From Bordetella parapertussis (lineage in GTDB: Bacteria; Pseudomonadota; Gammaproteobacteria; Burkholderiales; Burkholderiaceae_A), in the NCBI GenBank assembly GCA_945901825.1, contig CAMDMC010000035.1, positions 1 through 14,778 on the forward strand: DNA of 14,778 nt. Reading direction: 5' to 3'. The notes below the pieces were generated by a model. It ran no database searches, was not told the DNA's origin, and saw only the letters and a list, made by a program, of their open reading frames with translations. The position numbers were made by a program, and so were the translations under genes. Numbering within the stretch: the stretch's first letter is position 1; every line of letters starts with the position of its first letter. This document shows, piece after piece, positions 1-14,778 of this stretch.

Positions 1-292
1 CCTGAACGGCAAGCTCACGCATACGCTGCAACATGCTCGTTACCTGACCGTAAGCACCGTCGGCTGTTTGAGCCATCGATACGCCATCGTTAGCATTGCG
101 AATCGCCATAGAAAAACCACGCGACTGGGCTGTCATTCGGTTGGTAATAGCAAGACCAGCCGCATCGTCTTTCGCAGAGTTAATGCGAAGGCCGGTTGCC
201 AACCGTTCCATGGTGGTCGAGAGCTTCAGATTGCTCGTCCGCATGGACTCTTGAGCCATCATTGCCTTCACGTTGGTATTAATAACTGACAT
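1..292 (-). CDS. fliC: Flagellin, N-terminal part (cut by the left edge)
   Basis: This is the filament subunit, exported through the flagellar type III apparatus and polymerised outside the cell. Only the first 97 residues are in the window. They read [14 protein letters not shown] at the start, then [20 protein letters not shown], and later the [15 protein letters not shown] and LQRMREL blocks. These are the conserved D0/D1 helices of bacterial flagellin. The start is fixed by a strong Shine-Dalgarno (AAGGAG at 299-304) six bases upstream of the ATG at 290-292. A sigma-28 promoter lies at 358-384, and a stem-loop occupies most of the leader. The variable centre and C-terminus lie outside, so whether other flagellin copies follow is unknown. 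Family assignment is certain; the symbol fliC is by convention. Confidence 0.96.
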
Positions 293-318
293 GTAATTCT
301 CCTTAGGAAGAAGTCATT

Positions 319-357
319 AAAAGTTCAGAACGACTCATGTCAGTTCTGATAACTTTT
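319..357 (-). other. Stem-loop in the flagellin leader
   Basis: On the plus strand AAAAGTT (319-325) pairs with AACTTTT (351-357), CAGAAC (326-331) with GTTCTG (343-348), and GAC (332-334) with GTC (339-341) around a TCAT loop. This gives 16 base pairs with two small bulges (349-350 and 342). It begins directly downstream of the sigma-28 -10 box, so the predicted transcript would start in or at the base of the stem. It could be a 5' stabilising hairpin, a translation control element, or a terminator for read-through from flaG, because U-rich sequence follows the stem. The structure is plain in the sequence; the role is inferred. Confidence 0.6.
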
Positions 358-384
358 GAATCGGTTGTCGAATAAGAAACTTGA
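358..384 (-). promoter_or_regulatory. Sigma-28 (FliA) promoter of the flagellin gene
   Basis: Read on the minus strand, the -35 box is TCAAGTTT (377-384) and the -10 box is ACCGATTC (358-365), with exactly 11 bases between. The FliA consensus is TAAAGTTT-N11-GCCGATAA, so the -35 matches at 7 of 8 positions and the CCGAT core of the -10 is intact. It sits between the flaG stop and the flagellin start. A transcription start near 351 would give a leader of about 59 bases. The same layout recurs before flaG and fliD. Confidence 0.82.
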
Positions 385-391
385 GAAATTC

Positions 392-769
392 TTAAAACTC
401 GGCGTCGAAAAGAACACCCTTGAGGTCTTCAATGGAATTCGCAACACGAATAACAACCTCATTGGGAATCTGACGCACGACCTCTCCGGTCTCTTTATTC
501 ACAACTCGAACAATTTGCTTGTTTAGACGATCATCCACGGAGAAGCCGAGTTTGCGGCCGTTGGCCTCCATCTGCTCGTTAAGGCGGGCTACGGCCTCTT
601 CAAGCTTTTTATCCATCTCGGCTGGATCGATTCTAGCCACCGGGGGCGGGGCTTGGACTTCTTGGGGTGTCGTTACAGCAGAACTGGGCCCGTTGGCCAC
701 AGGTGTAACAGCCTTAGCCCCAGACGAGGGGGCCGACGTGGTCGAAAGCTGTGTTGACACGGGCGACAT
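392..769 (-). CDS. flaG: FlaG family protein
   Basis: FlaG is a small protein found next to flagellin and fliD in many polarly flagellated bacteria. In some species its loss lengthens the filament, but its biochemical role is not settled. With the start used here it has 125 residues. The first half is a low-complexity Ser/Thr/Pro/Ala segment. The second half is the conserved FlaG domain: a helix (LEEAVARLNEQMEANGRKL), then LGFSVDDRLNKQIVRV, TGEVVRQIPNE and a final helix. I chose the ATG at 767-769 because AAGGAA lies seven bases upstream. A GTG at 791-793 would add eight residues but falls in the stem of the leader hairpin and lacks a ribosome site. It has its own sigma-28 promoter at 836-862. 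Confidence 0.9.
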   Translation of the reverse strand: MSPVSTQLSTTSAPSSGAKAVTPVANGPSSAVTTPQEVQAPPPVARIDPAEMDKKLEEAVARLNEQMEANGRKLGFSVDDRLNKQIVRVVNKETGEVVRQIPNEVVIRVANSIEDLKGVLFDAEF

Positions 770-776
770 AGAAACG

Positions 777-782
777 TTCCTT
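777..782 (-). promoter_or_regulatory. Ribosome binding site that fixes the flaG start
   Basis: AAGGAA on the minus strand lies seven bases before the ATG at 767-769. It supports that codon over the upstream in-frame GTG at 791-793, which has no purine-rich site at a suitable distance. Confidence 0.7.
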
Positions 783-787
783 ATAAA

Positions 788-829
788 CGACACCCGGGAT
801 AATTGTAACGAAACCTTTTTCCGGGTTCG
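788..829 (-). other. Stem-loop at the predicted 5' end of flaG mRNA
   Basis: In the minus-strand transcript, CGAACCCGG (829-821) pairs with CCGGGT (797-792) and, across one bulged G at 791, with TCG (790-788). That is nine base pairs closing a 23-base loop. The stem begins at the start site predicted from the sigma-28 promoter (about 829). The ribosome site and ATG remain free downstream. The arrangement parallels the flagellin leader. The structure is visible; its function is inferred. Confidence 0.5.
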
Positions 830-835
830 AATTAG

Positions 836-862
836 AGATCGGTTGCCCGGCCAGGATCTTTA
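836..862 (-). promoter_or_regulatory. Sigma-28 (FliA) promoter of flaG
   Basis: On the minus strand the -35 box TAAAGATC (855-862) and the -10 box ACCGATCT (836-843) are separated by exactly 11 bases. TAAAG and CCGAT match the FliA consensus core. The -10 shares the ACCGAT form of the flagellin promoter. It sits downstream of the fliD stop and upstream of flaG, with a predicted start near 829. Confidence 0.8.
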
Positions 863-874
863 GAAGGAAACCTT

Positions 875-897
875 AAAAAAACTAAAGAATTCTTAAG
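875..897 (-). terminator. Possible intrinsic terminator after fliD
   Basis: After the fliD stop, the minus strand reads CTTAAG-AATT-CTTTAG (897-882), a short A/T-rich stem with one mismatch, followed directly by seven Ts (881-875). The position between fliD and the flaG promoter is right for a terminator. The stem is weak, so termination may be partial. Confidence 0.45.
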
Positions 898-917
898 TTG
901 CTGTTTTTATTTGTTTT

Positions 918-2342
918 TTAATTTTTGCCTGTGTTCAGCATGGCCTCAAACTGGCTCTTAAGGTTCTCTCGCATCGAAGTCAGCTGGCCCACAATGCTTT
1001 CCATGGCGGCAAACTGCTTGGTGTAGCGCTCCAAGATGCCTTCCATACGCGTCTCAAGCTTTTCCAGTTGCTCTTCGTAGCGACCCACCTGACTCTCAGC
1101 GCTCGTACTCTGGCTTAGGATAATGCCAGTTGGGCCCATCAAGGCCCGCAGACGCGCAGCCATTTCAGCCCCAAGCCCTTGTTGAATCACGGTTTCACCA
1201 TCCACCTCGGTGGTGGTTCGTCCGGCCAAGGCTGACACGACCTCTTCAAAATGGGTGGTCAAAGCCTCGTCAAGTGCGGCTTCATCAAGAGTAACTACAC
1301 CGTCTTTATCAACCGAGACACCCATGTCACGAAGGCTGGTAATTGACTCGCCTGCCGTTTCGGACTCACCAAAAAACACCTGGCGCATTTGTGACAAGAC
1401 GGACCGCACAGTGGAGTCCCCCCGCAGCGATCCACTGTAAATATCCTCTTCATCCTCCGAGGCAGGGCCCGTAAGAATTCCGAAATCGGACACCATACTG
1501 TTGTAGGCAGTCACGAAAGACTGAACCCGCTCTTTTACACCAGAGGAGTCGCGATTAAGCTGGACTGCAACCGCCCCGGTGGTTGGGCCTAAGAGGTCGA
1601 AGGTCATGCCCGGAATAACGTCGTCAATGGTGTTGGTGGAGCGGCTAATAGCAACCCCATTGACCGTTACTGCAGCATCGGCGGCATCTTGGCCGGTAGG
1701 CGTTGTAAAATTAAGCCCCGACGTGTCAGCAGCATCGGTGCTAACCGAAAAGGCATTGCTTGCGCCGGTCTGGCCCGTGAGCACAATTTTGTAGCGGTCG
1801 GCAGCACCCTCAACACCGGTATCAAGAAGCTGGGCAGAAACGCCAGCCCCGGCCTGATTAATGGCATTCACAACCGCCGAGGCATTGGTATCAGCTGCCG
1901 ATATTTCTATGTCGGTTGCCTCGCCAGCCACCGTCAAACTAAGAGTGAAGGCATTGCCGCCATTCACCTGGGCAGTAACATTGTCAAAGCCATCGCCCAC
2001 GCTGCGCTGCGCCTGAGCCAACGATGTGATTGAAATGGTATGCGCCCCGGGCGAGGCCAGAGAATTGGTGGAAACCTGAACGGCCAGGGGGTTGGAATTG
2101 CGTATATCGACCGCGGCGAAATCGGTGACGCTATCAAGGCCGTCAACCTGTTGCTTAAAAATGTCAAGCGCCGCCATCATGGCCGAATAGCCCGAAATTT
2201 TGGCCTCGGACTTGTCAATTTTTGACTGAATGGCCTGCTGCTTAGGCGCGCGCTCTGCCTCAACCAAGCTTTTGGCCAGTGCCTTGACATCCACACCCGA
2301 GCCGGCGCCCAAGGCAGTGATTAAGTTGGTATCAACGGCCAT
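918..2342 (-). CDS. fliD: Flagellar filament cap protein FliD (HAP2)
   Basis: FliD forms the cap at the filament tip and helps incoming flagellin fold and insert. The 474-residue product is in the normal size range. Residues 8-105 are the FliD N-terminal domain (ITALGAGSGVDVKALAKSLV, then SITSLAQAQ). A flagellin-IN-type motif follows at about 223-252 (AVTVNGVAISRSTNTIDDVI), and the FliD C-terminal domain covers about 257-470. That domain ends in a coiled-coil helix (LEKLETRMEGILERYTKQF, then SMRENLKSQFEAML). AAGGA lies six bases before the ATG. The gene has its own sigma-28 promoter at 2364-2390, which leaves a leader of only about 15 bases. No fliS or fliT follows; flaG and flagellin come next, the reverse of the common fliC-flaG-fliD order. 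Confidence 0.97.
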   Translation of the reverse strand: MAVDTNLITALGAGSGVDVKALAKSLVEAERAPKQQAIQSKIDKSEAKISGYSAMMAALDIFKQQVDGLDSVTDFAAVDIRNSNPLAVQVSTNSLASPGAHTISITSLAQAQRSVGDGFDNVTAQVNGGNAFTLSLTVAGEATDIEISAADTNASAVVNAINQAGAGVSAQLLDTGVEGAADRYKIVLTGQTGASNAFSVSTDAADTSGLNFTTPTGQDAADAAVTVNGVAISRSTNTIDDVIPGMTFDLLGPTTGAVAVQLNRDSSGVKERVQSFVTAYNSMVSDFGILTGPASEDEEDIYSGSLRGDSTVRSVLSQMRQVFFGESETAGESITSLRDMGVSVDKDGVVTLDEAALDEALTTHFEEVVSALAGRTTTEVDGETVIQQGLGAEMAARLRALMGPTGIILSQSTSAESQVGRYEEQLEKLETRMEGILERYTKQFAAMESIVGQLTSMRENLKSQFEAMLNTGKN

Positions 2343-2363
2343 CTAACATCCTTTTGGTTATAC

Positions 2364-2390
2364 GTATCGTCTGTTTCTCTTAAAACTTAA
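2364..2390 (-). promoter_or_regulatory. Sigma-28 (FliA) promoter of fliD
   Basis: On the minus strand the -35 box TTAAGTTT (2383-2390) and the -10 box GACGATAC (2364-2371) are separated by exactly 11 bases. The -35 matches TAAAGTTT at 7 of 8 positions and the -10 matches GCCGATAA at 6 of 8. The start site would be near 2357, just upstream of the fliD ribosome site. Confidence 0.8.
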
Positions 2391-2405
2391 GCCCCCGAGG
2401 CGCTT
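2389..2405 (-). terminator. Possible hairpin terminator after flgL
   Basis: The minus strand reads AAGCGCC-TCG-GGGGCTT (2405-2389), an imperfect G/C-rich stem. It is preceded by A-rich sequence and followed by AAGTTTT. It could end the flgK-flgL transcript, but its downstream arm overlaps the -35 box of the fliD promoter and the T run is short. It is therefore a weak call. Confidence 0.35.
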
Positions 2406-2465
2406 TATTTCAAAATTCAAAGCTTTTTTTAGCAGACCTTTAAAAACCATTGGCAGGCCTAAAAC

Positions 2466-3389
2466 CTATCGAATGTACTCAAACAGGTTAAGCCTTGAAA
2501 TCTGGGCAAAGCTGGCCTGACTGGCCTCAAGCGCCATCATGCGTTTCTGCATCTCCGTAACAGCCTCGGTGTAGTCAAGGTCTTCAATTTCACTTAAGAC
2601 CGTTTTAAGCTGAAGCCGGGTTTCGTCAAGCACGGCGGTCTGGTTGCTCACCACGTTCATGGCTGAGCCCACCTTGGCAATGCTTACAGCAACGCCCTGT
2701 GAAAGCCCATCAAGCTCGGCAAGCCCTTGGTTCATGGCCTGGCGGTCAGAGTTTCGAACACCATCAATAAGGTCTTGAACAGACTCGAAGAAACTTCGCC
2801 CTTGACGGCTTCCGTCGGGCATTTCTCGGCTAACGCCCGAGAACACCTCGGTGCCTGTGCGGTTTAAGCGCACTTGGCGCTGGTCGCCCACATCCACTAG
2901 GTTCACGGTCTCATCACCCTGGTAGGTAATTTCACCCTGACTATTCATAGCAAAGGGCGGCGTGAAGACGCGCGAACCGCTAAACAAATACGCTCCATTA
3001 ACATCCTGAGTATTGGCGTAGCTTAAAAGGTCTTCCTGCAGGCCCTGCATCTCAAGGGCAATGATTTCTCGGTCCTTCGGGCCGTAAGTGTCGTTAAGCC
3101 CCTGAATGGAGAGTTCTTTTAAGCGGGTGAGAATGGTTGAGGTGGCCTCAAGGGCAGTCTCCTCGGCGTTAAGGCGATTCTGTGCGGTTCGAATGGCGTT
3201 CTCGTAGCTGTCTTGACGAGCAATAACAGACTTCAGGCGTTGAATAGCGGTTGCCTGATCGGGCGCGTCGCTAACCTGAATGATCTTCTTGCCCGTTGAA
3301 AGCTGCGCCTGCGACTGGGCCAGACTATTCTGAGTCGTCGTCATCTGACTTAAGGCTCGATCGAAAAAGTAGCCTGTAGAAACCTTCAT
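2466..3389 (-). CDS. flgL: Hook-filament junction protein FlgL (HAP3)
   Basis: FlgL is the second of the two junction proteins between hook and filament and is flagellin-like. The product has 307 residues, a normal length. The N-terminal flagellin-type D0/D1 helices are clear: MKVSTGYFFDRALSQM, then LAQSQAQLSTGKKI, and SDAPDQATAIQRL. The central part holds GAYLFSGSRVFTPPF and ITYQGDE, typical of FlgL. The C-terminal helix ends YTEAVTEMQKRMMALEASQA and LNLFEYIR. AGGAG lies seven bases upstream of the ATG. It follows flgK by 58 bases with no promoter that I can see, so the two are probably one transcript. Confidence 0.97.
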   Translation of the reverse strand: MKVSTGYFFDRALSQMTTTQNSLAQSQAQLSTGKKIIQVSDAPDQATAIQRLKSVIARQDSYENAIRTAQNRLNAEETALEATSTILTRLKELSIQGLNDTYGPKDREIIALEMQGLQEDLLSYANTQDVNGAYLFSGSRVFTPPFAMNSQGEITYQGDETVNLVDVGDQRQVRLNRTGTEVFSGVSREMPDGSRQGRSFFESVQDLIDGVRNSDRQAMNQGLAELDGLSQGVAVSIAKVGSAMNVVSNQTAVLDETRLQLKTVLSEIEDLDYTEAVTEMQKRMMALEASQASFAQISRLNLFEYIR

Positions 3390-3447
3390 TCCATTACTCC
3401 TGTGCTCGAAGCTCGGCCATGGGTTGCCGCACGAGTACTACAAGCAA

Positions 3448-6400
3448 TTAACGAACCTGAATAATGGCGTCGAACAAAAGACTTGCGGTCTGAAGAACTT
3501 TGGCGCTGGCCTGATAGGCCTGCTGGTAGCGAATAAGGTCGGCCGCCTCTTCATCAAGGCTCACCCCAGACACCTGGTCACGCGCCTGCACCGCCTGATC
3601 TCTCACAACCTCAAGGGCGCGCTCGGCAATGCTGGCCTGAAACGAGGCATTGCCCACCTTGGTAACAGTCTGACCATAAACGTCAGCGAGCGTCTGGCCA
3701 ACGGTACCGCCCAAAAAGGGTCGGTTCTGAACCGCAGCAATGCGCAGGGCATTGCTGTTGTTACCAATGCCGTCCTGGTTGCCGTCCACCGCAAAACGGT
3801 CGCCTGCAACAGGCGCACTGCTAAGCGTTAGGGTGAGACCTCGGTACTGAATCCCCATGGCGGCATCGTATTGCCGCTCGGCAACAATTGTTCCTGTGTT
3901 GCGATCAAGAATTTGAAACTGGCTTGGGCTGGTGAAGACCACATCGAAGGGCTCGGCCCGCAAGGTATCAATGGCATTACGACTACCCTCTTTCCAGGTG
4001 GCACCCAGCTTAAAGCCAAGGCCATCGTCTTGCCCGGTGGCAAAGACCAGAAGGTCTTCCTTGATTTCACCGCTCAAATACACACCCGTGCGAAAGCCTA
4101 GGTTAGCAAGGTCTGTTGAGAGCCCGCGCTGGCCAAGGCCCAGGCGAATTTCAGACTGGAAGTTCTCGCCAGACGGCAGGTAGGCTGTGGTCTCGGATCG
4201 AAGGCTGACGCCCGTTCCGCCCGCATCGCTGATTTCTAGATTGCGCACATCCCCCGCAAGCAACGCCGACTTCACCGACAGACTGCCATCGCCGTTCAAT
4301 ACGTATTCCGCACGATCCGACGCCAGCGCCGAGCTTCCAAAGTTTTCAATAAGAGCCTGACGAACCTTAGCCGCCACCTGCTCGCCAGAGTCGCCCGCCT
4401 CAATGGCTACTTTAATACCTGCAATTTCTATTTCACCCGATGCGTCGGCTGTACCAAAGTAGAGCCGCTGCTCTTCACCCAGGCCTAAGGGGGTCTGAGT
4501 CAGGTCAAACCGCTCTCCAATGGCCTGTCCGGTGGCATCGAACACCGTGGCAAGCGCCACCTGAAGCCCACGAAAGTTAGTGATGTCCACATCCACGGCA
4601 ACCCCTGAGCCATCGCCAGGCTCGGAGGGGCCAGGCGGCAGAACTTCGGTAATTCCCAGGGTATCGACGTCGCCCTCTTGAGCAGGAAATCGAACCGTTA
4701 ACGAGCCATCGTCATTCAGGCTTACACGACGACCTGGGAACTCGTCGATGTAGCGCGGTGTGACTGTGGTTGAGAGAATCTCGACGTTTGCATCACCACC
4801 CACGGTAAACGTAGGCTCAAAGGCCTTACGCTCCACAGAGACAACCTGCCAGGAGAGGCGGCCTTGATCGTCAACTTCAAGCGTAATCCATGGCCTAGTC
4901 GCCTCTTCTGCATCAACACCATCGGCGGTAACCACCGAAATGGTGTCCGATCCACCCAAATGCGTCTCAAGCTCTTCCTTAACATGCCTTGCGACTTCTG
5001 CCGCAGTCATTGAACCGGCAAGGGTGATAACAAGATCCGCAATGATGTCGGTATCACCAACGAAGCTTGGTACAAAAATACTTCCATTGAGGTTCAAGGT
5101 CGTGCTTGTACCCGCCTCGGACTCGCTAAAAACAAAATTACCCGATGTAGTGTGTAAGGCATCAAATACCTTGCCGGTTACCGTGGCCGCCGAATCACCT
5201 GAGGCAACATCCACAAGACGCCCTGCAATATAGAACGACCCGTCCTCGGAGGCGCCACTAAAACGCAGTTGCTGTTCTTCACCCTGCCCTAGTCGGCCAA
5301 CACTTCCAGGTGCCTTCACAACATTGGTCTCGATGCCTGTTGTTCCAAGATCGAACTGAACGCGGTCAAGGTCGTCATCGGCCAAGGCCATTTGTATAAC
5401 CAACGAGCCATCGTCCTGCACCTCCACCGAGCGACCCGCGAAATCTGCAATAAACGGGTGTGCGGTGATGGAGTCTGCAACCGCCTGAGCGGTTCGCAGC
5501 TCAGACCAACCCGCTTCGACCTCGGTCTCAACACTCATTAACGCCCGCGTCTCACGAACCTGGGCGCTAAGCCCTGTGGTGTCCGTATTAACCTCGACAA
5601 TGGGGTCATCTTCCGTAAGACCAAAGCCCAGAATCAAGGATCCTTCGTCGGTGGATTGAATACGACGGCCCTCGGCTTCTTCAAGATACCCTGCCTCACG
5701 AAAGGCCTGCTCAACACGTCGCGCAATGTCGGCGGCCTTCATCCCGGCCGTAACCTCTATGCTTGCCGACAGTGTGCTCACAGGGGGAAGGTCGATCGTT
5801 AGTGTTCCCGCTGCGCTTGCATCCGAAAACGAGATGCGCCGCTCGGCCGTTGAAAGCACGGTGGTCAAGGTGCCGTCGGCCTGAGGAGCTGAAAACCGAA
5901 TGGTCTGGGTCTCGCCCGAGCCCCATCCCGGCTGAGCCCGCAGCCATGCCATCAGATGCGAAGGCTCAAGGGCATAGGCATCGGTTGTGCCTTCAACAAG
6001 GCTCAAGGACTCACCAATCACGGTCTCACGCAGCACCAGGTTGTCGTCAAGTCCGGACATCACCATTCGGGCCTCGCCGTCAACGTCTTCAACACGAAGC
6101 CCGTAAAGTTCCACACCATTTAAAACAAGGTCGGCATGGCTAAAAAGGGTCTGACCAAGCGCCACCGAGCTGGTTGGAATGGCACCCGAGGAAATGCTTG
6201 CGGCAAGCCTGTCCACACTTCCCACCACATGGTCTTTGTTAAGCTGCTCAATTTCTTCAACAGCAGCCTTAACCCCGTAAAAGACCTCCATGCCGCGATA
6301 GGCTTGAGGATCTTGTGCGTTGAGGTACTGGGTGGAATAGCTTGCCCCATCGTAAAAGTTTGCGCCGGCAAGACGTGAGGAACTTAAGAAATTAATGCCG

Positions 6401-8445
6401 GCCTGATTTTCTAACGAGGCTCGCTCATCGTCATTTAGAGCACGGCCCAGCGCGGCCTCTTCGGTGGAAACAAGATCGTCAGCGAGGGGGCGGCCCGCAA
6501 TATGTCTGCCGTCCCGGGTAAAGACCTGAAGGTCAATGGCCTGGTCGCTAAGTTCACCCAGGTATAAATTAACGTTCTGATAGCCCTCGGGAATAACAGC
6601 CAGAGGGGAAAGCGACGTTCCCGACAGTCGAATGGCTTCGTCGGCAAAAAAATTGTTGTCCAGAGTCTCCGTGCCACTGGCGCTCTTAAGCTGCCCAATG
6701 GCTGGCGTTGTCTCACTCGCAAAGTGGTCGCCCGTTTCATCAATTTGGGCATTGGCCCCACTGGGGTTGAACTGGTTTTCAATAACGCGGAACCGACTGG
6801 CAGCGGCCACCTGTTCAGCATCGTTTAACACCAAGGACATACCGGCCGCAGGCCGATTGGTGGCGGTAAGTAACAAAACCTCGCCATCGGTGGGATTGCC
6901 TGAAAAATCAATTTGCAGGCCGTTAATCTGCAGAGACTTTACGCCCGAGACCATCTCACCTGAATCAAGGTCTTTGGCAGTCCACAGCCCCTGATTGACC
7001 TGATTCTCGATACGTCCATCCGTGCTGGTGCTGCTAATTTCAAATGAGAAGGCACCAAAGACGGTGCTCGAGACCAGAAGGTCGTTACCGGCACCGGAGG
7101 CCACCTGCACCTGGCGGCCGAAAGGGCCATCTAAAGACGATCCATTTCCACCCTGTAGGAATGACTTCACACTGGCTACGACACTTTCAAGCTCCATGGA
7201 GGTGCCCAGAATGGGGCGTCCTTCGGCATCCAGCTGGCCATCAAACAAAGTGAACGACCGGCTATTGCCGTTTAGTGTCACGGCAATCTGATCACCGGTT
7301 TTAAAGTTTCCGGTAAGGGTAAGGTCGTTGATTTGTCCGGCGTTTGCATCAAAGGCAAGCTCAATAGGGCTTGCCTTGTAAGCATCAAGGTCGACAAGCC
7401 GTGGGCCAAGCCTTGCGTTCGTAGCCCCCTGCGAGGACTGAAGCTGAAAGACGGGGTCAATACGGAAGAGGTCCAGCCCATCATTGCCGGCAAGGTCAAT
7501 GCCCTCACGATGAATCTCATTCAGTTCTTTGGCCGTTGCCTTGGCAAGAAAGTCAAGGTCAGTCATGGTGGTTGAAAGCACCCGCTGACGAAAATTAATT
7601 AGACCGGCCATACTTCCACCTGCAATGCCATTCACGGTCTCTGGGGTTTTGGAATAGGCATCCAACACCATGTCCACCTTTCCAGGCTCGGTTTCACTAA
7701 AAACAGCCGACAAGGTCCGCGTGCCTTCGGCGTTCACAATTTGCCCGCGCGCCAAGGTGCTGCTGATGCTTACAGTGACCTCACCGTTCATGGCTTCGGC
7801 TGTTCGAATTTTTGCAAGCTCAGCCATTTTCTTAAGAACAGTGTCCCGCTCGTCAAGAAGTGCAGGCGGTTGCCGGTCGAGGTAACGCGTTTTACGCAGC
7901 TGTAGATTAACCGTATTCAACTGCTCAGCAAGCTGATTAAGCTCGTTAATATCGCTTTTAAGACGCTCTTGGGTCTCTTCGTTCACCAACTCAAGCTGGC
8001 CATTAAGCTCACCAAATCGTGCAGCCAAGCCCTCGGCCTTGCTTAAAAACTGCGTGCGAAGAACCAGCGACGAGGCGTCTGAAGAGAGCTGACGGGTGGC
8101 ATCAAAAAACTCTTCAAAAGCTGACAGTAGGCTAACGTTCTCGTTACCTAAAATATTCACCACCCGGTTGGCGTACTCCACCATGGGCCCTTGGGTTTCC
8201 AGTTCGGCGGTTGCATTGCGTAGGCTGTCTTCTATAAACGCGTCATACAGCCTGCGAACTCCTGTTACGTTGACACCGGTTCCAATAAACGACGTTCCAT
8301 AGTCGCGCGGGCTGTTTTCAATCAATCCCACTTCTTGTTTGGAATAGCCCTCGGTGCCGACGTTGGCAATGTTGTTTGAGACTGTACCCAAGGCCCTCTG
8401 ATAGGCCGAGACCGCGGTACTGGCAATAGTGACGAGATCACTCAT
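3448..8445 (-). CDS. flgK: Giant hook-filament junction protein FlgK (HAP1)
   Basis: FlgK joins the hook to the filament. The N-terminal D0/D1 part (about 1-330) is canonical, with SNNIANVGTEGYSKQ at residues 23-37, ALLDERD, and GGSMAGLINFR. The C-terminal part (about 1560-1665) is also canonical, with NALRIAAVQ, SIAERALEVV, GVSLDEEAADLIRYQQAYQA and a final LLFDAIIQVR. At 1665 residues it is about three times the usual 450-650, because about 1,100 residues are inserted into the outer domain. The insert holds repeated modules: GxGExQ boxes at about 842, 1053 and 1321, and DGSL boxes at about 933, 1011, 1245 and 1385. The frame is open throughout, so it is not a fusion of decayed genes. No clear ribosome site precedes the ATG, and a small hairpin (8446-8457) abuts it. 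It follows flgJ by 54 bases. Confidence 0.95.
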   Translation of the reverse strand: MSDLVTIASTAVSAYQRALGTVSNNIANVGTEGYSKQEVGLIENSPRDYGTSFIGTGVNVTGVRRLYDAFIEDSLRNATAELETQGPMVEYANRVVNILGNENVSLLSAFEEFFDATRQLSSDASSLVLRTQFLSKAEGLAARFGELNGQLELVNEETQERLKSDINELNQLAEQLNTVNLQLRKTRYLDRQPPALLDERDTVLKKMAELAKIRTAEAMNGEVTVSISSTLARGQIVNAEGTRTLSAVFSETEPGKVDMVLDAYSKTPETVNGIAGGSMAGLINFRQRVLSTTMTDLDFLAKATAKELNEIHREGIDLAGNDGLDLFRIDPVFQLQSSQGATNARLGPRLVDLDAYKASPIELAFDANAGQINDLTLTGNFKTGDQIAVTLNGNSRSFTLFDGQLDAEGRPILGTSMELESVVASVKSFLQGGNGSSLDGPFGRQVQVASGAGNDLLVSSTVFGAFSFEISSTSTDGRIENQVNQGLWTAKDLDSGEMVSGVKSLQINGLQIDFSGNPTDGEVLLLTATNRPAAGMSLVLNDAEQVAAASRFRVIENQFNPSGANAQIDETGDHFASETTPAIGQLKSASGTETLDNNFFADEAIRLSGTSLSPLAVIPEGYQNVNLYLGELSDQAIDLQVFTRDGRHIAGRPLADDLVSTEEAALGRALNDDERASLENQAGINFLSSSRLAGANFYDGASYSTQYLNAQDPQAYRGMEVFYGVKAAVEEIEQLNKDHVVGSVDRLAASISSGAIPTSSVALGQTLFSHADLVLNGVELYGLRVEDVDGEARMVMSGLDDNLVLRETVIGESLSLVEGTTDAYALEPSHLMAWLRAQPGWGSGETQTIRFSAPQADGTLTTVLSTAERRISFSDASAAGTLTIDLPPVSTLSASIEVTAGMKAADIARRVEQAFREAGYLEEAEGRRIQSTDEGSLILGFGLTEDDPIVEVNTDTTGLSAQVRETRALMSVETEVEAGWSELRTAQAVADSITAHPFIADFAGRSVEVQDDGSLVIQMALADDDLDRVQFDLGTTGIETNVVKAPGSVGRLGQGEEQQLRFSGASEDGSFYIAGRLVDVASGDSAATVTGKVFDALHTTSGNFVFSESEAGTSTTLNLNGSIFVPSFVGDTDIIADLVITLAGSMTAAEVARHVKEELETHLGGSDTISVVTADGVDAEEATRPWITLEVDDQGRLSWQVVSVERKAFEPTFTVGGDANVEILSTTVTPRYIDEFPGRRVSLNDDGSLTVRFPAQEGDVDTLGITEVLPPGPSEPGDGSGVAVDVDITNFRGLQVALATVFDATGQAIGERFDLTQTPLGLGEEQRLYFGTADASGEIEIAGIKVAIEAGDSGEQVAAKVRQALIENFGSSALASDRAEYVLNGDGSLSVKSALLAGDVRNLEISDAGGTGVSLRSETTAYLPSGENFQSEIRLGLGQRGLSTDLANLGFRTGVYLSGEIKEDLLVFATGQDDGLGFKLGATWKEGSRNAIDTLRAEPFDVVFTSPSQFQILDRNTGTIVAERQYDAAMGIQYRGLTLTLSSAPVAGDRFAVDGNQDGIGNNSNALRIAAVQNRPFLGGTVGQTLADVYGQTVTKVGNASFQASIAERALEVVRDQAVQARDQVSGVSLDEEAADLIRYQQAYQASAKVLQTASLLFDAIIQVR
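4171..5928 (-). repeat. Degenerate protein-repeat array inside FlgK
   Basis: This covers FlgK residues about 840-1425. Several diverged modules share a G-x-G-E-x-Q-x-(I/L)-x-F entry box (near 842, 1053, 1321). They also share a helix of the type GDSAATVTGKVFDAL, TAAEVARHVKEEL or GDSGEQVAAKVRQAL, and a D-x-G-S-L box followed by alternating hydrophobics (near 933, 1011, 1245, 1385). Three copies end in TG plus a short strand. The alternating strand-helix-strand pattern resembles the beta-rich outer domains of flagellar axial proteins. The repeats are visible at protein level but not as near-identical DNA, so the expansion is old or fast-diverging. Confidence 0.65.
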
Positions 8446-8457
8446 GGCTTAATAGCC
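8446..8457 (-). other. Mini-hairpin directly before the flgK start codon
   Basis: The minus strand reads GGCT-ATTA-AGCC immediately before the ATG. It occupies the place where a Shine-Dalgarno would lie, and no AGGAG-like sequence is present in the preceding 25 bases. This suggests weak or coupled translation initiation of flgK. It could be chance, as the stem is only four base pairs. Confidence 0.35.
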
Positions 8458-8499
8458 AGTTTTTGCGCATGGGTTGGTGAGGTGCAAGTCCTTCGCGCC

Positions 8500-9054
8500 T
8501 TAGCGCAAGGGACGGGCCACCGTTCCTTCCCTTTCCAGCGGTTTAAGGGGCTTGGCCAAAGGCAGGTTCGGCGCAACGGCGTCTTGGGCCGGCAGACCAA
8601 AAGAAGGCGCCTTCTCAAGCGGAATCATAGGGCTGCGATTTGTGTCTGCCCGCGCAAACCCCTGTTCCTTCTGCTCGCGTTCTCGACGAGCAAGCATGTC
8701 TGCGGCAGCCTGCTGCTGCTTTTCCATGTGACCAACTAACATATCGGAAATACCTACAGCACCGCGCTTAGCCATTTGCAATGCCACCTCGCGGTCAAAC
8801 ATTTCTTCATAGGTTTGAATGGCGGCCGAATCAACCAGCTCGTCTTTGCCCACCGAGGCACGCATGCTCTTAAGCATTTCTTGCAGGAACAAAGCCTCAA
8901 ACTGCTCGGCTGCCGCACGCAGGGCCTTTTTCTGACCATCAGACTGTGAGGGGTCTGTGCCTTGTGTGCCGTCGGCAGACGGCCCTGACTTTTGTCGGGC
9001 CATGGCCTTAAGGCTTTCAAACTTCGAAAAATCTAAAGTCGACTGAATTTCCAT
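8500..9054 (-). CDS. flgJ: Rod-binding FlgJ without a peptidoglycan hydrolase domain
   Basis: FlgJ helps assemble the rod in the periplasm. In enterobacteria it is a two-domain protein with a C-terminal glucosaminidase. Here the product is only 184 residues. Residues about 44-110 form the rod-binding domain (KALRAAAEQFEALFLQEMLK, TYEEMFDREVALQMAKRG, GISDMLVGHM). After that comes a charged helix rich in Gln and Arg, then a Pro-rich tail, and no hydrolase domain. This single-domain form is known in several bacterial groups that use a separate hydrolase. AAGG lies nine bases before the ATG. The gene follows flgI by 39 bases and precedes flgK by 54, as in the standard flgIJKL order. Confidence 0.93.
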   Translation of the reverse strand: MEIQSTLDFSKFESLKAMARQKSGPSADGTQGTDPSQSDGQKKALRAAAEQFEALFLQEMLKSMRASVGKDELVDSAAIQTYEEMFDREVALQMAKRGAVGISDMLVGHMEKQQQAAADMLARREREQKEQGFARADTNRSPMIPLEKAPSFGLPAQDAVAPNLPLAKPLKPLEREGTVARPLR

Positions 9055-9093
9055 AGTGTCTTACCTTTAACGTCGCTTGTATTTGCTGAATCC

Positions 9094-10314
9094 TTAGATG
9101 ACCACAAGCTCAGCACGCAGGCTGCCCGAGCTTTTAAGGGCCTCAAGAATGGCAATAAGGGCAGAAGGGGTCGCACCCACCTGGTTCACCGCGTCTACAA
9201 TCTGACGCAGATCAACCCCAGGCTGAAAAAGGAACATAGGGTTCTTATCTTCTTGCACTGCAACGTCCGCGTTCTGCACCTCGGCTGTCTCACCCCCAGC
9301 AAGGGCGGCAGGCTGGCTCACCTCGTTTGTGGCGGCGATCATCACAGAGATGGTTCCGTGTGAAACTGCGGCAGCGGTCACTTTTACGTTTCGGCTAATC
9401 ACTACCGTTCCGGTGCGCGAGTTCACAATGACTCGCGCCGGCGGCTCACCTGGCGTGACATCAAGATTTTCAATTTCGCTCATAAAGGCAACCCGCTGGC
9501 TTGTATTTGCAGGACTTCGAATAGCAATGGATGTCGCATCAATAGCCTGGGCGGTGCCATCGCCGAAAGTCTTATTAATGGCATTTACAATTCCGTTCGT
9601 GGTTGAAAAATCCGATGCATGCACGTTCATAACCAAGAACTCGGCACTCTCAAAGGGTGTGGGAACCGTGCGCTCAACAATGGCGCCGTTAGGAATACGG
9701 GCGGCTGTTGGTACACCAAGCGTTACGCGCGAGGCAGCAGCCTCTTCACGCACACCTGTCGCTGTTAAAGGACCTTGCGCAAGGGCATAGACCTGCCCAT
9801 CCACACCCCGAAGGCTTGTAAGAATAAGGTTGCCACCACGCAGGCTCTTGGCCTTACCAATGGCTGACACGTTGACATCAATACGCTGGCCGGGCTTTGC
9901 AAACGCAGGAAGCTCAGCCGTAACAAAAACAGCGGCAACGTTATCCACGTCCACGATAGCCGCTATGGCCTTTTGCTTTGCAAAGGAGTCGACGCTCTCG
10001 TCTCGAGAGTTTGTTATTGCGCCAAGGCGCTTCAGAAGTTCGGTCACGGTGGAAGACGTAACGTTTGCCGAACCCTTGTCTCCCGTTCCCTCAAGGCCAA
10101 CAACCAAGCCGTAGCCTATTAGTTGATTCGACCTGCTGCTTGCCAAGGAGGCTAAGTCTTTAACTCGATCTGCATAAGCAGGCGGGGAGATAAGAATAAT
10201 GAGAATAGCAAGAACCCAAGCGATGCCGACAACCCACCGAGCCTTAAGACTGAAATCTGTTGTCATAAGCACATCACTTAGATGTTGCTTAAATGCCTGG
10301 AGTTCTTGTCGCAT
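9094..10314 (-). CDS. flgI: Flagellar P-ring protein FlgI precursor
   Basis: FlgI forms the periplasmic P-ring around the distal rod. The mature part begins DRVKDLASLASSRSNQLIG and runs YGLVVGLEGTGDKGS, KAIAAIVDVDNVAAVFVTAE and LPAFAKPGQRIDVNVSAIG. Its C-terminus reads QIVDAVNQVGATPSALIAIL, then LRAELVVI. All of these are canonical. A Sec signal with a hydrophobic core at about 27-42 ends at AYA (46-48). The presequence is long, 48 residues against about 20 in enterobacteria. Starting instead at Met17 (10266) would give a 32-residue signal, but AAGGGT seven bases before the first ATG favours the longer form. It follows flgH by 65 bases; no promoter is evident there. Confidence 0.96.
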   Translation of the reverse strand: MRQELQAFKQHLSDVLMTTDFSLKARWVVGIAWVLAILIILISPPAYADRVKDLASLASSRSNQLIGYGLVVGLEGTGDKGSANVTSSTVTELLKRLGAITNSRDESVDSFAKQKAIAAIVDVDNVAAVFVTAELPAFAKPGQRIDVNVSAIGKAKSLRGGNLILTSLRGVDGQVYALAQGPLTATGVREEAAASRVTLGVPTAARIPNGAIVERTVPTPFESAEFLVMNVHASDFSTTNGIVNAINKTFGDGTAQAIDATSIAIRSPANTSQRVAFMSEIENLDVTPGEPPARVIVNSRTGTVVISRNVKVTAAAVSHGTISVMIAATNEVSQPAALAGGETAEVQNADVAVQEDKNPMFLFQPGVDLRQIVDAVNQVGATPSALIAILEALKSSGSLRAELVVI

Positions 10315-10379
10315 GGTGTACCCTTGGTGAGGAATGCTTGGTAGAAGCTCTTACAAAGTTATTTTGAGACGTGGGCGCC

Positions 10380-11054
10380 TTAGAAAGGCCAAATTTTCAT
10401 TAAGAAGCCTGAGCCCCAAGGAACTTTGCTAGCGTTTTCCATATCGCCTGAGCCTGTGTAGGAAATCTGAGCATTTGCTAGGCGTTCAGAGCGAATGGTT
10501 GACTCAGACGTAATGTCATCGGGCCGCGCAATTCCAGCTACTCGAATTTTTTCTGCGCCCTGTGAAAATTCAATTTGCTTTTCGCCGCGCAGAATCAAGT
10601 TGCCATTCGAAAGCACTTGAGTAACAGTCGCCGCAACTGCAGCTTTCAGTTCCGCACCGTGTGAGGTGTTCGCTTCAGAATCGGTACTGTGTGTTGTCCC
10701 ATTCAATGGGAGTCCATCAAAAACACCCGGCAGTAGCGGTTGAACTGACGGCATCACGTTGTTACTTGTGGTTCTTTCCATATTATTCGATCGTTTGTTT
10801 GACCCGCTTGGAGCCTCGATAACAATGACTGTCACGATGTCCCCAATTTTGAAGTCTCGCCTACGGTCAAACCAATTTCCTAATCGACCGGTTTGATAAA
10901 TAGACCCTGTAGCCGCAACCGGCGGAGGTTCGGGAATTTGAACGATCGGCGCAAATTCCGCGTCAGCCAGTTTGGGTTTGTTCGAGGCACAGGCCACTAA
11001 AGTTGTCGCAGCAAGCACCGATAAACCAATTCGGGAAGCTCTGTAAACCATCAT
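10380..11054 (-). CDS. flgH: Flagellar L-ring lipoprotein FlgH precursor
   Basis: FlgH forms the outer-membrane L-ring. The product has 224 residues. A lipoprotein signal peptide ends in the lipobox LVAC with Cys22 as the acylated residue. The mature part holds GSIYQTGRLGNWFDRRRDFK and IGDIVTVIVIEAPSGSNK, then the region from NGNLILRGEKQIEF to the end: IRVAGIARPDDI, ISYTGSGDMENASKVPWGSG and FLMKIWPF. This is a complete FlgH. AAAGG lies seven bases before the first of two adjacent ATG codons, so the first is chosen. Only 19 bases separate it from the flgG stop, which implies co-transcription with flgG. Confidence 0.96.
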   Translation of the reverse strand: MMVYRASRIGLSVLAATTLVACASNKPKLADAEFAPIVQIPEPPPVAATGSIYQTGRLGNWFDRRRDFKIGDIVTVIVIEAPSGSNKRSNNMERTTSNNVMPSVQPLLPGVFDGLPLNGTTHSTDSEANTSHGAELKAAVAATVTQVLSNGNLILRGEKQIEFSQGAEKIRVAGIARPDDITSESTIRSERLANAQISYTGSGDMENASKVPWGSGFLMKIWPF

Positions 11055-11073
11055 TTTTAAGCCTTTAAAAAAA

Positions 11074-11859
11074 TTACAGGTTGTTGTTAAGGAAGCGCAG
11101 CATGCCGTCGGTGGCCGAAATGGTCTTGGAGTTCACCTCGTAGGCCCGCTGGGTTTCAATCATGTTCACCATCTCTTCCACCACGTTCACGTTGGAGGCT
11201 TCCAACATGCCTTGGCGTAAAAAGCCAATGCCTTCAACGCCGGGAACGAGAACAACCGGGGCGCCGCTGGCTGCGGTTTCTTTGTATAGGTTTTGACCCA
11301 TCGGCTGAAGGCCTGCTGGGTTAATAAAGCGTGCCAGGTTAATCTGGCCAAGGGCCACCTGGCCACCACCAGCAACAAGTTCGGCCGTTACCGTGCCATC
11401 GCGGCCAATGCTAATAGAAGCAGCGTTGTCGGGAATGACAAGGGCAGGGTCAAGCAGGTCGCCATGTCCTGTTACAACCTGCCCTGCGGCATTGATTTTG
11501 AAGGCGCCGTCACGTGTGTAGGCAATGGTTCCATCGGCCTGGGTGATCTGCATGAAGCCCGGGCCGTCAATGGCAATGTCCAAGGCATTTTCGGTGTTAA
11601 TCATGTTGCCCTGGGCATGAATCTTCTCAGTGGTCAGAATGCGTGTACCCGTACCCACCATAAGACCCGTAGGTGTCAAGGTATCGGCACCCGTGGCACC
11701 CCCTGGCTGACGAATATTTTGGTAAAGAAGGTCTTCGAAGTTAGCCCGGTCGCGCTTAAAACCGGTGGTGTTCACGTTAGCTAGGTTGTTTGAGATAACG
11801 CTCATGCGCTTTTGCTGAGCGTCGAGTCCTGTCTTAGCAATCCATAAAGAGGCGTCCAT
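11074..11859 (-). CDS. flgG: Distal rod protein FlgG
   Basis: FlgG builds the distal rod, the longest part of the axial shaft. At 261 residues it is standard length. The N-terminal rod-protein motif reads SNNLANVNTTGFKRDRANFE, followed by DLLYQNIRQPGG. The body has IDGPGFMQI and AYTRDGAFKINAAGQVVTG. The C-terminus reads EASNVNVVEEMVNMIETQRA, YEVNSKTISATDGMLRFLN. TAAGGA lies seven bases before the ATG. Unlike its neighbours it follows a 169-base gap. That gap holds a sigma-54-like promoter (11912-11927) and a palindrome (11945-11964), so flgG probably has its own transcription start. Confidence 0.97.
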   Translation of the reverse strand: MDASLWIAKTGLDAQQKRMSVISNNLANVNTTGFKRDRANFEDLLYQNIRQPGGATGADTLTPTGLMVGTGTRILTTEKIHAQGNMINTENALDIAIDGPGFMQITQADGTIAYTRDGAFKINAAGQVVTGHGDLLDPALVIPDNAASISIGRDGTVTAELVAGGGQVALGQINLARFINPAGLQPMGQNLYKETAASGAPVVLVPGVEGIGFLRQGMLEASNVNVVEEMVNMIETQRAYEVNSKTISATDGMLRFLNNNL

Positions 11860-11911
11860 GCAGCATTCCTTAGAAATGGGGAAGTCTTACAACTTCGTTC
11901 AAGGAATACTA

Positions 11912-11927
11912 AGCAAGATATCTGCCA
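11912..11927 (-). promoter_or_regulatory. Sigma-54 (RpoN) type promoter before flgG
   Basis: The minus strand reads TGGCAGATATCTTGCT. The -24 element TGGCA and the -12 element TTGCT have the exact consensus spacing (TGGCAC-G-N4-TTGCW); two positions between the core boxes differ. The start site would fall near 11900, leaving a leader of about 41 bases to the flgG ATG. RpoN control of rod and ring genes is well known in polarly flagellated proteobacteria. The call rests on one match, but in the longest non-coding gap of the window. Confidence 0.65.
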
Positions 11928-11944
11928 ACTAGCCTGGGGTTCAA

Positions 11945-11964
11945 AGCGGCAAGGGCTTGCCGCT
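11945..11964 (-). other. Perfect palindrome between flgF and flgG, with a repeated half-site
   Basis: On the plus strand AGCGGCAAG (11945-11953) and CTTGCCGCT (11956-11964) are exact inverted repeats, nine base pairs around a two-base centre. The arm TTGCCGCT occurs again at 11973-11980, so either copy can pair with the single opposite arm. It lies 18 bases upstream of the sigma-54-like promoter. It could be an activator (enhancer-binding protein) site, a terminator of the flgE-flgF transcript (only three Ts follow), or a processing hairpin. Confidence 0.6.
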
Positions 11965-12028
11965 ACTTACAATTGCCGCTCTCTACAAATGTTTGTCACA
12001 AGCAGGCTTAAATACGACCCCTAGAACG

Positions 12029-12838: not shown

Positions 12839-12859
12839 CTAAAAGCTCTCAGCTATTAG
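12839..12859 (-). other. Short hairpin over the flgE stop codon
   Basis: The minus strand reads CTAA-T-AGCT-GAG-AGCT-T-TTAG, eight pairs with one mismatch around a three-base loop, including the flgE stop. It is A/U rich and has no following T run beyond those in the stem. It could trim or slow the transcript between hook and rod genes, or be chance. Confidence 0.3.
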
Positions 12860-14778
12860 CTTCTGATGTTAATAATGGCCTGGGTTAGGGTGTTATTGGT
12901 TTCAATTGCCTTGGCATTGGCCTGGAAGTTTCGCTGATTGGTAATCAGTTCGATCAGTTCCGCGGTCAAGTCCACATTGGCCCGTTCCCTAGCACCAGCA
13001 CGAACCGTACCAAAGCCTGCTGTTCCCGCCTCACCTAAGGTTACTGAACCCGACTGAGAGGTCTCGTAGTAACTGGCATCACCAATTTGCCGCAACCCCG
13101 TTGGATTCGAAAAGTTGGCAAGAACAATTTTGGCTAAGTTCTTCACGGTGCCGTTGGAGTAGTTCGCTGACACAAGGCCATCATCACCAATATCTAGACC
13201 AATCAGGTCACCTTCGGGTCGCCCGTTCTGGTCTTGGGCAAGAACCGAGAAGGGGTTAGAGAACTGGGTTGATCCGTCGTAATCAATGGCAATTCCTAAA
13301 GTGGCGCCGGATGTACCAATGGTTTCACTCGCAAACTTAATGGCGGACCCTGGCGAGACAAGCTGACCTGCAGTATCAAAGGTTAGCTCGCCCTTATCGA
13401 AGAAGACCGGTGCCCAAAGGTCTCGCGTCTCTTCTTCTGAAAAATCCCCGGCGTCAGTGGTCTCGTTACCATCACGGTCGACATACAAGGGGAAGCCCTC
13501 CGGGTCGGTCGCTTGAGGGGGTTCCACCCATTCAGTGGTCCCGCCCCGAACGCTCTCTAGATCGTTAAGACCCCAGACGCTTGGTCCAGAGATTTTCAAG
13601 AAAGAGTCGTCACCCGTGGTGCCTGTGGTGAACTGGAAGGCCCTGGTATTAGTTACCGGGTTTGTTACAACCTCTACTTTGACCCCGTTGACCGTTCGCC
13701 CAAAGGAGTCGGCTAACGAATTAATGCGGCGCTCTAGAAGATCGCGGAACTCTTCAATGTTGTAATCCTCTTTTCGAGGCATTTGGATAAGGCCGGTCAC
13801 GTTATCCACTGTTACAACGAAAGTGTCGTTACGCGCGTCGACTACAAATTTGTTGTCTAAGTTAATACCAATGGCGCCACCTGTAAGCACGGCAGGTTTT
13901 GACTCAATGCCGCGAACGGGAACGTCCGAGGGTAGAACAACAGGAGAGGCGCCTGTGGCAGCAGGAACCACTTCGTCAGCGGCTGTTTGAGTAAACCCAA
14001 AGAGAATGTTCGCAAGATCAGAGGCGTCACTAATTTTTACACTTGAGGTGTCGCCTGTAGTACCCGAAGAAATTTCAAAAATACGGTCGGTGTCGTTGAA
14101 AGTCACCTCTACACCATAGCGCTGGTCAGCCTGTGCCAGCATTTCGCGGCCATTAGGAAGTACAACAGAACCGTACGTTCCCGTATTGGGGTCTACCGCT
14201 GTGGGCACGATTTCCAACCCAAATAACTCGTTACGACCACTTGTTGCGGAGCCCAAGCGAATGATGTCGTCTTCCTCGCCCTTAAACGTGAAGCTACCTG
14301 CAACTGCGTCGTAGCCTACTTGTATAGCTCGAAAAGAGTCGGCCCGCGATATTTTTGTATTCGCCGTTGAATTGGCAAGCTCAGCCTGACTGGCCACGTA
14401 ATCTTGAATGGTAGACAGCGTTTCTTGATCAACATACTGCCCGCCAACCTCCGTTAGCAGCGCAACAGCTTCTGAGCTTGCCGTGGCCTGCGCTTCTTGA
14501 ATTGCCTCAAGCACTGAACTGGCCGTTGCAGTTCGGCTTGAGTACGCTTCAACCGCAGCCCTCTGCGGGCCATTGGAAGAGGCTAAAACCGCCTCGTAAA
14601 CTGAAAGCGCCGTTGAAGAGGCCCTGGCTGCCTCGGCCTCAGCCGCAGCCAGCGCACCCTCAACAGAGCCTCGCGCAGGAGTCGTTGCATCACCATAGCC
14701 ATAGAAGTAGGCATTACCCACATCTTGCGAAGCCGCTGCCTGGCGAATGGCAGTCAGAATCTCGGCCTTCGTAAGCTT
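12856..14778 (-). CDS. flgE: Flagellar hook protein FlgE, enlarged; 5' end cut by the right edge
   Basis: FlgE is the hook subunit. The frame is open through the right edge, giving 640 visible residues. A GTG at 14719-14721 is only an internal Val, and the true N-terminal SNNxAN-type motif lies outside. The C-terminus is diagnostic: KIVLANFSNPTGLRQIGD, AGARERANVDLTAELIELIT, NQRNFQANAKAIETNNTLTQ, ending IINIRS. The visible part alone exceeds many whole FlgE proteins (about 400 in Salmonella). Visible residues about 38-157 are Ala-rich and predicted helical. A module is duplicated, with SSGTTGDTSSVKIS and TTGTTGDDSFLKIS 144 residues apart. Such extra domains would sit on the outer surface of the hook. 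Calling it FlgE rests on the C-terminus and on the position before flgF. Confidence 0.92.
   Translation of the reverse strand, partial: KLTKAEILTAIRQAAASQDVGNAYFYGYGDATTPARGSVEGALAAAEAEAARASSTALSVYEAVLASSNGPQRAAVEAYSSRTATASSVLEAIQEAQATASSEAVALLTEVGGQYVDQETLSTIQDYVASQAELANSTANTKISRADSFRAIQVGYDAVAGSFTFKGEEDDIIRLGSATSGRNELFGLEIVPTAVDPNTGTYGSVVLPNGREMLAQADQRYGVEVTFNDTDRIFEISSGTTGDTSSVKISDASDLANILFGFTQTAADEVVPAATGASPVVLPSDVPVRGIESKPAVLTGGAIGINLDNKFVVDARNDTFVVTVDNVTGLIQMPRKEDYNIEEFRDLLERRINSLADSFGRTVNGVKVEVVTNPVTNTRAFQFTTGTTGDDSFLKISGPSVWGLNDLESVRGGTTEWVEPPQATDPEGFPLYVDRDGNETTDAGDFSEEETRDLWAPVFFDKGELTFDTAGQLVSPGSAIKFASETIGTSGATLGIAIDYDGSTQFSNPFSVLAQDQNGRPEGDLIGLDIGDDGLVSANYSNGTVKNLAKIVLANFSNPTGLRQIGDASYYETSQSGSVTLGEAGTAGFGTVRAGARERANVDLTAELIELITNQRNFQANAKAIETNNTLTQAIINIRS
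13555..14103 (-). repeat. Duplicated module inside FlgE
   Basis: Two protein segments (13993-14103 and 13555-13671) share the pattern V-T-F/T-N, a four- to five-residue turn, then (F/I)-x-(I/F)-(S/T)-(S/T)-G-T-T-G-D-x-S-x-(V/L)-K-I-S. Each is followed by a Leu/Asn-rich helix start (DLANILFGF, WGLNDLESV). Copies are 144 residues apart. The strand-rich pattern resembles flagellin-IN-type modules. The similarity is clear at protein level and weak at DNA level. Confidence 0.55.

Follow-up and report, generated by a model that had tools for sequence, protein, structure and literature searches.

The stretch of DNA analysed here, referred to as the window, comprises 14,778 nucleotides of Bordetella parapertussis (assembly GCA_945901825.1, contig CAMDMC010000035.1, positions 1 to 14,778 of the forward strand). 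It carries a flagellar operon in the order flgE-F-G-H-I-J-K-L-fliD-flaG-fliC, in which every gene could be assigned through Pfam or NCBIfam. Our subject is flgK, which sits between flgJ and flgL, as expected of FlgK (HAP1). Its 1,665 residues (protein P0001) are encoded by a single open frame, which runs from ATG to stop on the minus strand from 8445 to 3448. The NCBIfam equivalog TIGR02492 (flgK_ends) scores 286.3 bits on P0001 against a cut-off of 170.75, in two stretches that fall at both ends, and Pfam places Flg_bb_rod at residues 7-34, FlgK_D1 (PF22638) at 93-327 (4.4e-49) and Flg_bbr_C (PF06429) at 1624-1663 (3.3e-10). Judged from these ends and from the operon position, the sequence is that of FlgK, in agreement with the first-pass annotation of this DNA, which had described canonical FlgK ends in a frame uninterrupted over 5 kb. 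The gene and its flanking domains are as follows.

3448..8445, minus strand: flgK, 1,665 residues, 176.8 kDa, isoelectric point 4.36, cysteine-free
7456..8445, minus strand: N-terminal D0-D1, canonical FlgK, residues 1-330 (Pfam Flg_bb_rod and FlgK_D1, NCBIfam flgK_ends)
3676..4158, minus strand: second part of the D2 core, residues 1430-1590 (from the alignment of relatives)
3451..3675, minus strand: C-terminal D1-D0, residues 1591-1665 (Flg_bbr_C; 96% identity to the relative P0010)

A homologue search, restricted to candidates of 0.55-1.75 times the query length, gave 100 proteins of 915-1,796 residues (P0001 included) from 7,990 scored candidates. Alignment of 28 of these 100 FlgKs reveals that residues 1-780 and 1430-1665 are common to all, while the stretch 790-1430 varies in the manner of an accordion. 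Two layers can be distinguished. The first, an enlarged D2 core, is present also in relatives of 915-1,263 residues; large FlgKs with this core and no module were found in betaproteobacteria and Porticoccaceae. The second consists of five copies (A-E) of one beta-alpha-beta module of about 93 residues, which occupy residues 842-1414. The roughly 1,100 extra residues reported by the first-pass annotation are correct in comparison with Salmonella FlgK (a chain of 553 residues); about 470 of them belong to the enlarged core common to relatives, and about 640 (residues 790-1430) to module accretion. The annotation overlooked this make-up from five copies of a single module, two of them nested, and the presence of the module in the hook, cap and filament proteins of relatives.

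The module profile was seeded with residues 1321-1424 of P0001 and iterated over the 100 FlgKs. Its matches in P0001 (residues/profile positions) are 842-861/1-20, 867-959/4-92, 969-1038/21-92, 1053-1133/1-78, 1135-1221/21-92, 1231-1267/49-86 and 1321-1414/1-93, from which the modules were delimited.

5863..5922, minus strand: head of module A, residues 842-861, profile 1-20 (weak by itself, 10-11 bits)
5569..5847, minus strand: module B, residues 867-959, profile 4-92, inside A (profile match)
5332..5541, minus strand: tail of module A, residues 969-1038, profile 21-92 (profile match)
5155..5289, minus strand: head of module C, residues 1053 to about 1097, profile 1 to about 48 (the profile match itself spans 1053-1133)
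4783..5148, minus strand: module D, residues about 1100 to 1221, inside C (the least certain copy)
4645..4755, minus strand: tail of module C, residues 1231-1267, profile 49-86 (32 bits)
4204..4485, minus strand: module E, residues 1321-1414, profile 1-93, unsplit (the profile seed)

Since the split profile coordinates meet, module B lies within A at profile position 20/21 and module D within C at about 48/49; these coordinates, together with a match of predicted fold, place copies of the module inside other copies. Similar split points recur in relatives, at about 48/49 in P0014, P0015, P0016 and P0056 and at 21/22 in P0019, and unsplit counterparts exist as well (A is whole in P0014-P0016, C in P0017-P0020). 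Among 200 reversed or shuffled control sequences none matched at E 0.001; the seed profile picked up two reversed sequences at 0.003-0.005, and the best control match of the final profile was at 0.19. At E 0.01 modules are found in 30 of the 100 FlgKs (31 with a widened profile). The number of modules follows FlgK length (r = 0.889 over the 100 proteins), with about 122 residues per module on a base of 1,072 residues. P0011 and P0012 each carry one additional B-like copy, which shares 50% (P0011) and 60% (P0012) identity with the B of the same protein. P0013 lacks this copy, although its overall identity to P0011 and P0012 is 88.5% and 87.2%, respectively. That such near relatives differ by one copy argues for a recent insertion or loss. 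Two FlgK-like proteins of this set, P0035 (1,137 residues) and P0056 (1,245 residues), have longest contigs of equal length (12,959) and may be two genes on one contig; for P0056 no N-terminal FlgK domain is listed.

A false fusion or collapsed repeats in the assembly, or an annotation error, could in principle have produced such a frame. P0010, encoded on another contig, is also 1,665 residues long and 88% identical. The cluster of P0001 holds 29 member sequences and 3 contigs, the G+C content at third codon positions (GC3) stays within 0.50-0.63 along the whole of flgK, and Tandem Repeats Finder detected 0 arrays in the window DNA. An artefact is thus extremely improbable. Disorder of the insert was likewise judged unlikely. 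AlphaFold2 prediction of residues 331-1522, an analysis of the kind that the first-pass annotation had proposed, gave a mean predicted local distance difference test (pLDDT) score of 76.4, with 144 of 1,192 residues below 50, and the module profile finds repeats in this segment. These results support an outer domain that is mostly folded and repeat-bearing.

The predicted fold of module E finds its best structural match in the outer part of Pseudomonas aeruginosa FliC (4nx9). The module also matches a phage tail-sheath domain (8foy) and, more weakly, T4 gp11 and perhaps the D2 domain of FliD; in the predicted structure, the fold of flagellin outer domains and phage sheath domains is shared across most of the module. 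The first seven Foldseek matches, alignments of 697-1,026 columns (1,033 with row 6) at a root-mean-square deviation of 27-39 Å, were discarded. Sequence similarity is slight. Six modules, five from relatives and one from the window, gave no PF07196 (Flagellin_IN) match at E ≤10, in a search whose filters discard most matches weaker than about 0.1, and neither did the whole of P0001 at E ≤1. With Pfam and PHROGs the modules gave only weak baseplate and sheath matches; the GP11 baseplate wedge family (PF08677) reaches 19.7 bits on the best module and 16.6 bits on whole P0001, under the curated cut-off of 27. Among the sequences of the PDB, the module alignment A4 gave 13 matches at E ≤10, the best of which (Filamin-B, 20 residues, E 0.002) was judged to be chance, and module E alone gave none. 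A single-sequence scan of the genome contigs returned nothing, and the viral contigs searched with A2 gave no relative.

The module is not confined to FlgK. When the profile built from FlgKs only was run on the open reading frames (ORFs) of 80 loci, it scored also in FliD and FlgE. The widened profile at E 0.01 finds the module in 5 of 88 ORFs labelled FlgK, 11 of 64 labelled FliD and 6 of 50 labelled FlgE, and in 0 of 79 FlgL-labelled and 0 of 63 FliC-labelled ORFs of these loci. The FliDs of L024, L030, L038 and L058 form the weak tail of this profile (13-17 bits), and a partial match in the FlgF of L029 was not recovered at E 0.01. Compared pairwise, L009 FliD and P0044 FlgK are 54% identical over 85 residues, and FlgE and FliD within L048 are 46% identical over 95 residues. 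Module-bearing flagellins are encoded elsewhere in the genomes, away from these loci. A search with A4 found matches in 14 of 15 genomes, which had been picked for having modules or large proteins. The host frames include FliDs of 582-724 residues, an FlgE of 1,724 residues, flagellins of 945-1,896 residues, which coincide with PF00669 matches, and an adhesin-like ORF of 8,865 residues; of these frames, Pfam confirmed two as flagellins, two as FlgEs and two as FliDs. Because A4 holds rows of FliD and FlgE, its searches are not independent of the widened-profile scan. On these alignments the module is homologous across FlgK, FlgE, FliD and FliC and varies in copy number. Betaproteobacterial carriers include L104 and L101 (G004), L103 (G001) and L105 (Limnohabitans JirII-31), with a giant hook protein of 1,724 residues and giant flagellins of 1,331-1,896 residues.

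FlgL frames measure 307-341 residues in the 34 genomes of the length comparison (below) that have one. A few of the 72 complete FlgL-labelled ORFs across all loci are longer (383-553 residues from stop to stop, in L008, L037, L047 and L067, with two in L047), and these are free of the module; the FlgL-labelled ORF of L014 is split. In the window itself, the genes around flgK are as follows.

2466..3389, minus strand: flgL, 307 residues, without module
918..2342, minus strand: fliD, 474 residues, without module
12856..14778, minus strand: flgE, C-terminal 640 residues, gene cut by the window edge; the part present is without module
2..292, minus strand: start of a flagellin gene (PF00669, 2.9e-29), of which the window edge leaves 97 residues

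With FlgG at 261 residues, the ordinary size that the first-pass annotation had ascribed to FlgL, FliD and FlgG is confirmed; FlgE has at least 640 residues, since the window edge cuts it. The flagellin start is 83.5% identical to a 730-residue flagellin of G001 and 56.7% to the 1,331-residue flagellin of the same genome, and being closer to the former it does not indicate a giant filament in the organism of the window. FlgJ (8500-9054, minus strand) is 184 residues long, and its Pfam matches comprise the rod-binding domain only, with no peptidoglycan hydrolase domain. FlgF (12029-12796, minus strand) lacks an N-terminal Pfam Flg_bb_rod match; a similar N-terminus occurs in L104.

The history of the copies was examined with a tree of 84 modules (FlgK 56, FliD 11, FliC 10, FlgE 5, adhesin-like ORF 2), which remained of 114 after removal of near-copies; it has 92 usable columns, and many of its forks are unresolved. 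The window is represented by B and E, the split A, C and D being too incomplete. L070 has modules in an unlabelled ORF, which were kept out; the weak FliD modules of L030 and L058 were kept in. The tree requires 13 changes of host gene, for a minimum of 4 and a shuffled mean of 26.7. As 13 exceeds 4, one origin per gene is insufficient; as it lies far below 26.7, modules mostly remain in their own gene. Supported sisters that join different genes are FlgE and FlgK of strain MOLA814 (100/91), which has modules in a flagellin as well, with the FliD of MOLA814 next to them (81/51), a flagellin and the 8,865-residue ORF of G001 (100/90), and the FlgK P0091 with the FliD of L030 (99/94), the last on the weak module call in L030. 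A tentative reading, to which we give slightly less than even credence, is that in a small betaproteobacterial group one surface domain serves as an interchangeable tile for the whole exterior of the flagellum. Copies of it would have spread among the genes for hook, junction, cap and filament, and also into the domain itself, to give branched, nested proteins of 1,300-1,900 residues, with FlgL, the second junction protein, staying free of it. Weighing against such interchange, the module tree clusters mainly by gene, and only one supported sister pair from a single genome joins two flagellar genes.

The two modules in the 8,865-residue ORF of G001 (L106, on G001:C8), one of which is the sister of a flagellin module of the same genome, bear on adhesion. 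The first-pass annotation had listed adhesion among the possible roles, and an adhesive collar would bind surfaces or partner cells at the filament base. This ORF is the one weak pointer in that direction, "adhesin-like" being our own reading of it. No adhesin family was found for P0001 (Pfam, NCBIfam, PHROGs) or for the modules tried (Pfam, PHROGs), and by fold the modules come closest to flagellin and phage tail proteins. We regard adhesion as very unlikely.

FlgKs of this size are few among the genomes sampled. In a sample of 200 genomes from the order of G001, FlgK_D1 occurs in 134, and FlgK frames above 1,000 residues are those of G001 (1,485), G166 (1,507) and G081 (1,203); the last was rejected as a giant FlgK as the frame overruns flgI and flgJ. 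In a sample of 200 Pseudomonadota, FlgK_D1 occurs in 162, and among the matches listed G001 alone exceeds 1,000 residues. The module itself, at E 1e-6, was found in 1 of 200 genomes in the phylum-level and 1 of 200 in the order-level sample, both times the sample centre G001, and in 9 of 26 genomes of the family of G001 and 3 of 11 of the genus of G002. The giant frame of G166 (L107:7340-11860, P0109) contains about eight alanine-rich repeats of about 80 residues, unrelated to the module. The FlgK frames of G059 and G226 (506 and 503 residues) were rejected as size controls, as they belong to a different flagellum (FlgG 56-57% identical to that of the window).

If the outer loops of axial proteins merely tolerate inserts, copies may accrue by recombination between similar stretches, and size would have little function. 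The unequal copy number of P0011 and P0013 and the unrelated repeats of G166 are in line with this account, as is the behaviour of FlgK length, which covaries little with other parts once phylogeny is considered. FlgK and flagellin lengths correlate in the raw data (rho 0.62, 35 genomes), and contrasts give r 0.32 (p 0.04; rank 0.17; 34 tips, L036 having been left off the tree for want of enough genes). For FlgK and FlgE the raw rho is 0.44 (n=25), and contrasts give r 0.28 (p 0.21; rank 0.46). Co-scaling of FlgK with flagellin, being weak after phylogeny, is not claimed. Seven of 42 genomes were excluded from this comparison: G002 and G034 have split frames, G007 and G036 a short flagellin, taken as cut off, and G009, G027 and G033 FlgL-like matches only. 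The flagellin frame of G012 (945 residues) looks frameshifted and was retained at that length; all lengths run from stop to stop, and three FlgE lengths were added for the contrasts. However, E-position FlgK modules group in a single clade (99/100, 9 rows), and the A-position modules of relatives in another (100/97, 8 rows). These clades span genomes, which argues that modules are kept, and the 5-kb frame has stayed open, with identical length at 88% identity. Neutral accretion is improbable, in our estimation.

Divergence of the modules could point instead to a fast-changing shield, in which variable modules would mask the conserved joint against grazers or phages that bind flagella, with selection for change and not for stiffness. 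In a five-gene tree (59 rows) the nearest relatives of the window are L002, a Burkholderiaceae metagenome-assembled genome (MAG), and L001, a Betaproteobacteria MAG. Between the window and L002, FlgG is 98% identical but FlgE 52%. The last 600 residues of P0026 match the second FlgK piece of L002 at 95% identity; between P0026 and the window FlgK, the first part of the D2 core is 47% identical and modules A-D 43-44%. In comparisons of P0001 with P0010 and P0013, too, the modules diverge more than the protein ends. Yet divergence is as great in FlgH (56%) and FlgJ (50%), neither of which is an exposed outer domain, and P0010 retains all five modules at 77-89% identity. We consider a shield unlikely.

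The explanation that we hold to be probable, if with reserve, is that the outward domain of FlgK has grown in two layers into a collar of surface tiles that stiffens or armours the joint. The first layer would be the enlarged D2 core, common to a betaproteobacterial group and some Porticoccaceae. The second would result from repeated copying of the one module of about 93 residues, with its flagellin-outer-domain-like fold. Each new copy would enter an older one at either of two sites, one close to where the second strand ends (profile 20/21) and the other where the helix ends (about 48/49); this gives domains within domains, in a chain that still runs out and back. Because both ends are canonical, export and ring assembly would follow the usual FlgK route. 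The Salmonella FlgK ring is reported to have 11 subunits (PMC12221982); if the same number applies here, by analogy, the outer parts, at 132.8 kDa each, would together come to about 1.5 MDa and a bulky collar would follow. The collar would pack against itself and its neighbours, stiffening or armouring the hook-filament joint. Its presence in the hook, cap and filament of relatives suggests that the module acts as a surface tile of these flagella, and the flagellin-like fold suggests lateral packing of this kind. Stiffening thus appears to fit the predicted fold best among the roles offered by the first-pass annotation. In P. aeruginosa PAO1, outer-domain networks are described as needed for motility and filament stability in viscous medium (PMC10256154). 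We infer that nesting arose by insertion and not by loss elsewhere, and the same standing attaches to the ring stoichiometry here, the mechanical role, the copying route and the choice among stiffening, shield, adhesion and neutral accretion as the function of the collar.

The nearest precedents are giant flagellins and the FlgE of Campylobacter jejuni. The giant flagellins of Bermanella and Oleibacter, as described in PMC6248924, have duplicated DE regions; like the window FlgK, they are axial proteins that exceed 1,000 residues by outer-domain copying, with intermediates. The DE region is reported there in Pseudomonas flagellins, and the best match of module E is Pseudomonas FliC. In contrast, the giant flagellins hold two tandem copies and a new insert, and the same text reports no matches outside flagellins, whereas the window FlgK has five copies, two of them nested, and FlgE, FliD and FliC contain relatives of its module. 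The Campylobacter jejuni FlgE also nests its outer domains, with D3/D4 within D2 and D4 inside a discontinuous D3, and keeps 11 protofilaments; according to PMC5069557, its domains are different and of one copy each, unlike the nested copies of one module in FlgK, whose number varies in relatives. The N-terminal parts of known FlgK structures align with P0001, the best stretches being 1-373 (Salmonella 9go6), 30-366 (4ut1, which we take to be the Burkholderia pseudomallei FlgK of PMC5691160) and 10-221 (Campylobacter 9gsx). These proteins are of 553, 673 and 608 residues, respectively, and none of the best stretches reaches 842-1414 at E 1. Another source gives 702 residues for Caulobacter FlgK and a D3 domain for that of B. 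pseudomallei (PMC5691160). To the P. aeruginosa FliC outer domain and the phage tail sheath the likeness is in predicted fold, with slight similarity of sequence (Pfam GP11 under its cut-off). No giant modular FlgK was found in the literature searched, which took in few subscription papers; within that literature, a FlgK with nested copies of one module that vary in number, and the occurrence of this module in four flagellar proteins, appear to be new.

How a protein that runs out and back takes up duplicated domains was left open for the giant flagellins (PMC6248924). In this FlgK the copies are apparently nested at two recurrent positions, and relatives with and without a given copy exist, so that the steps of growth can be read from the sequence. 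If one domain is indeed shared by the hook, junction, cap and filament genes, the coat of the flagellum could be remodelled from a single part. This would affect export, whose channel is about 20 Å wide (PMC12221982), as well as stiffness, phage attachment and grazing.
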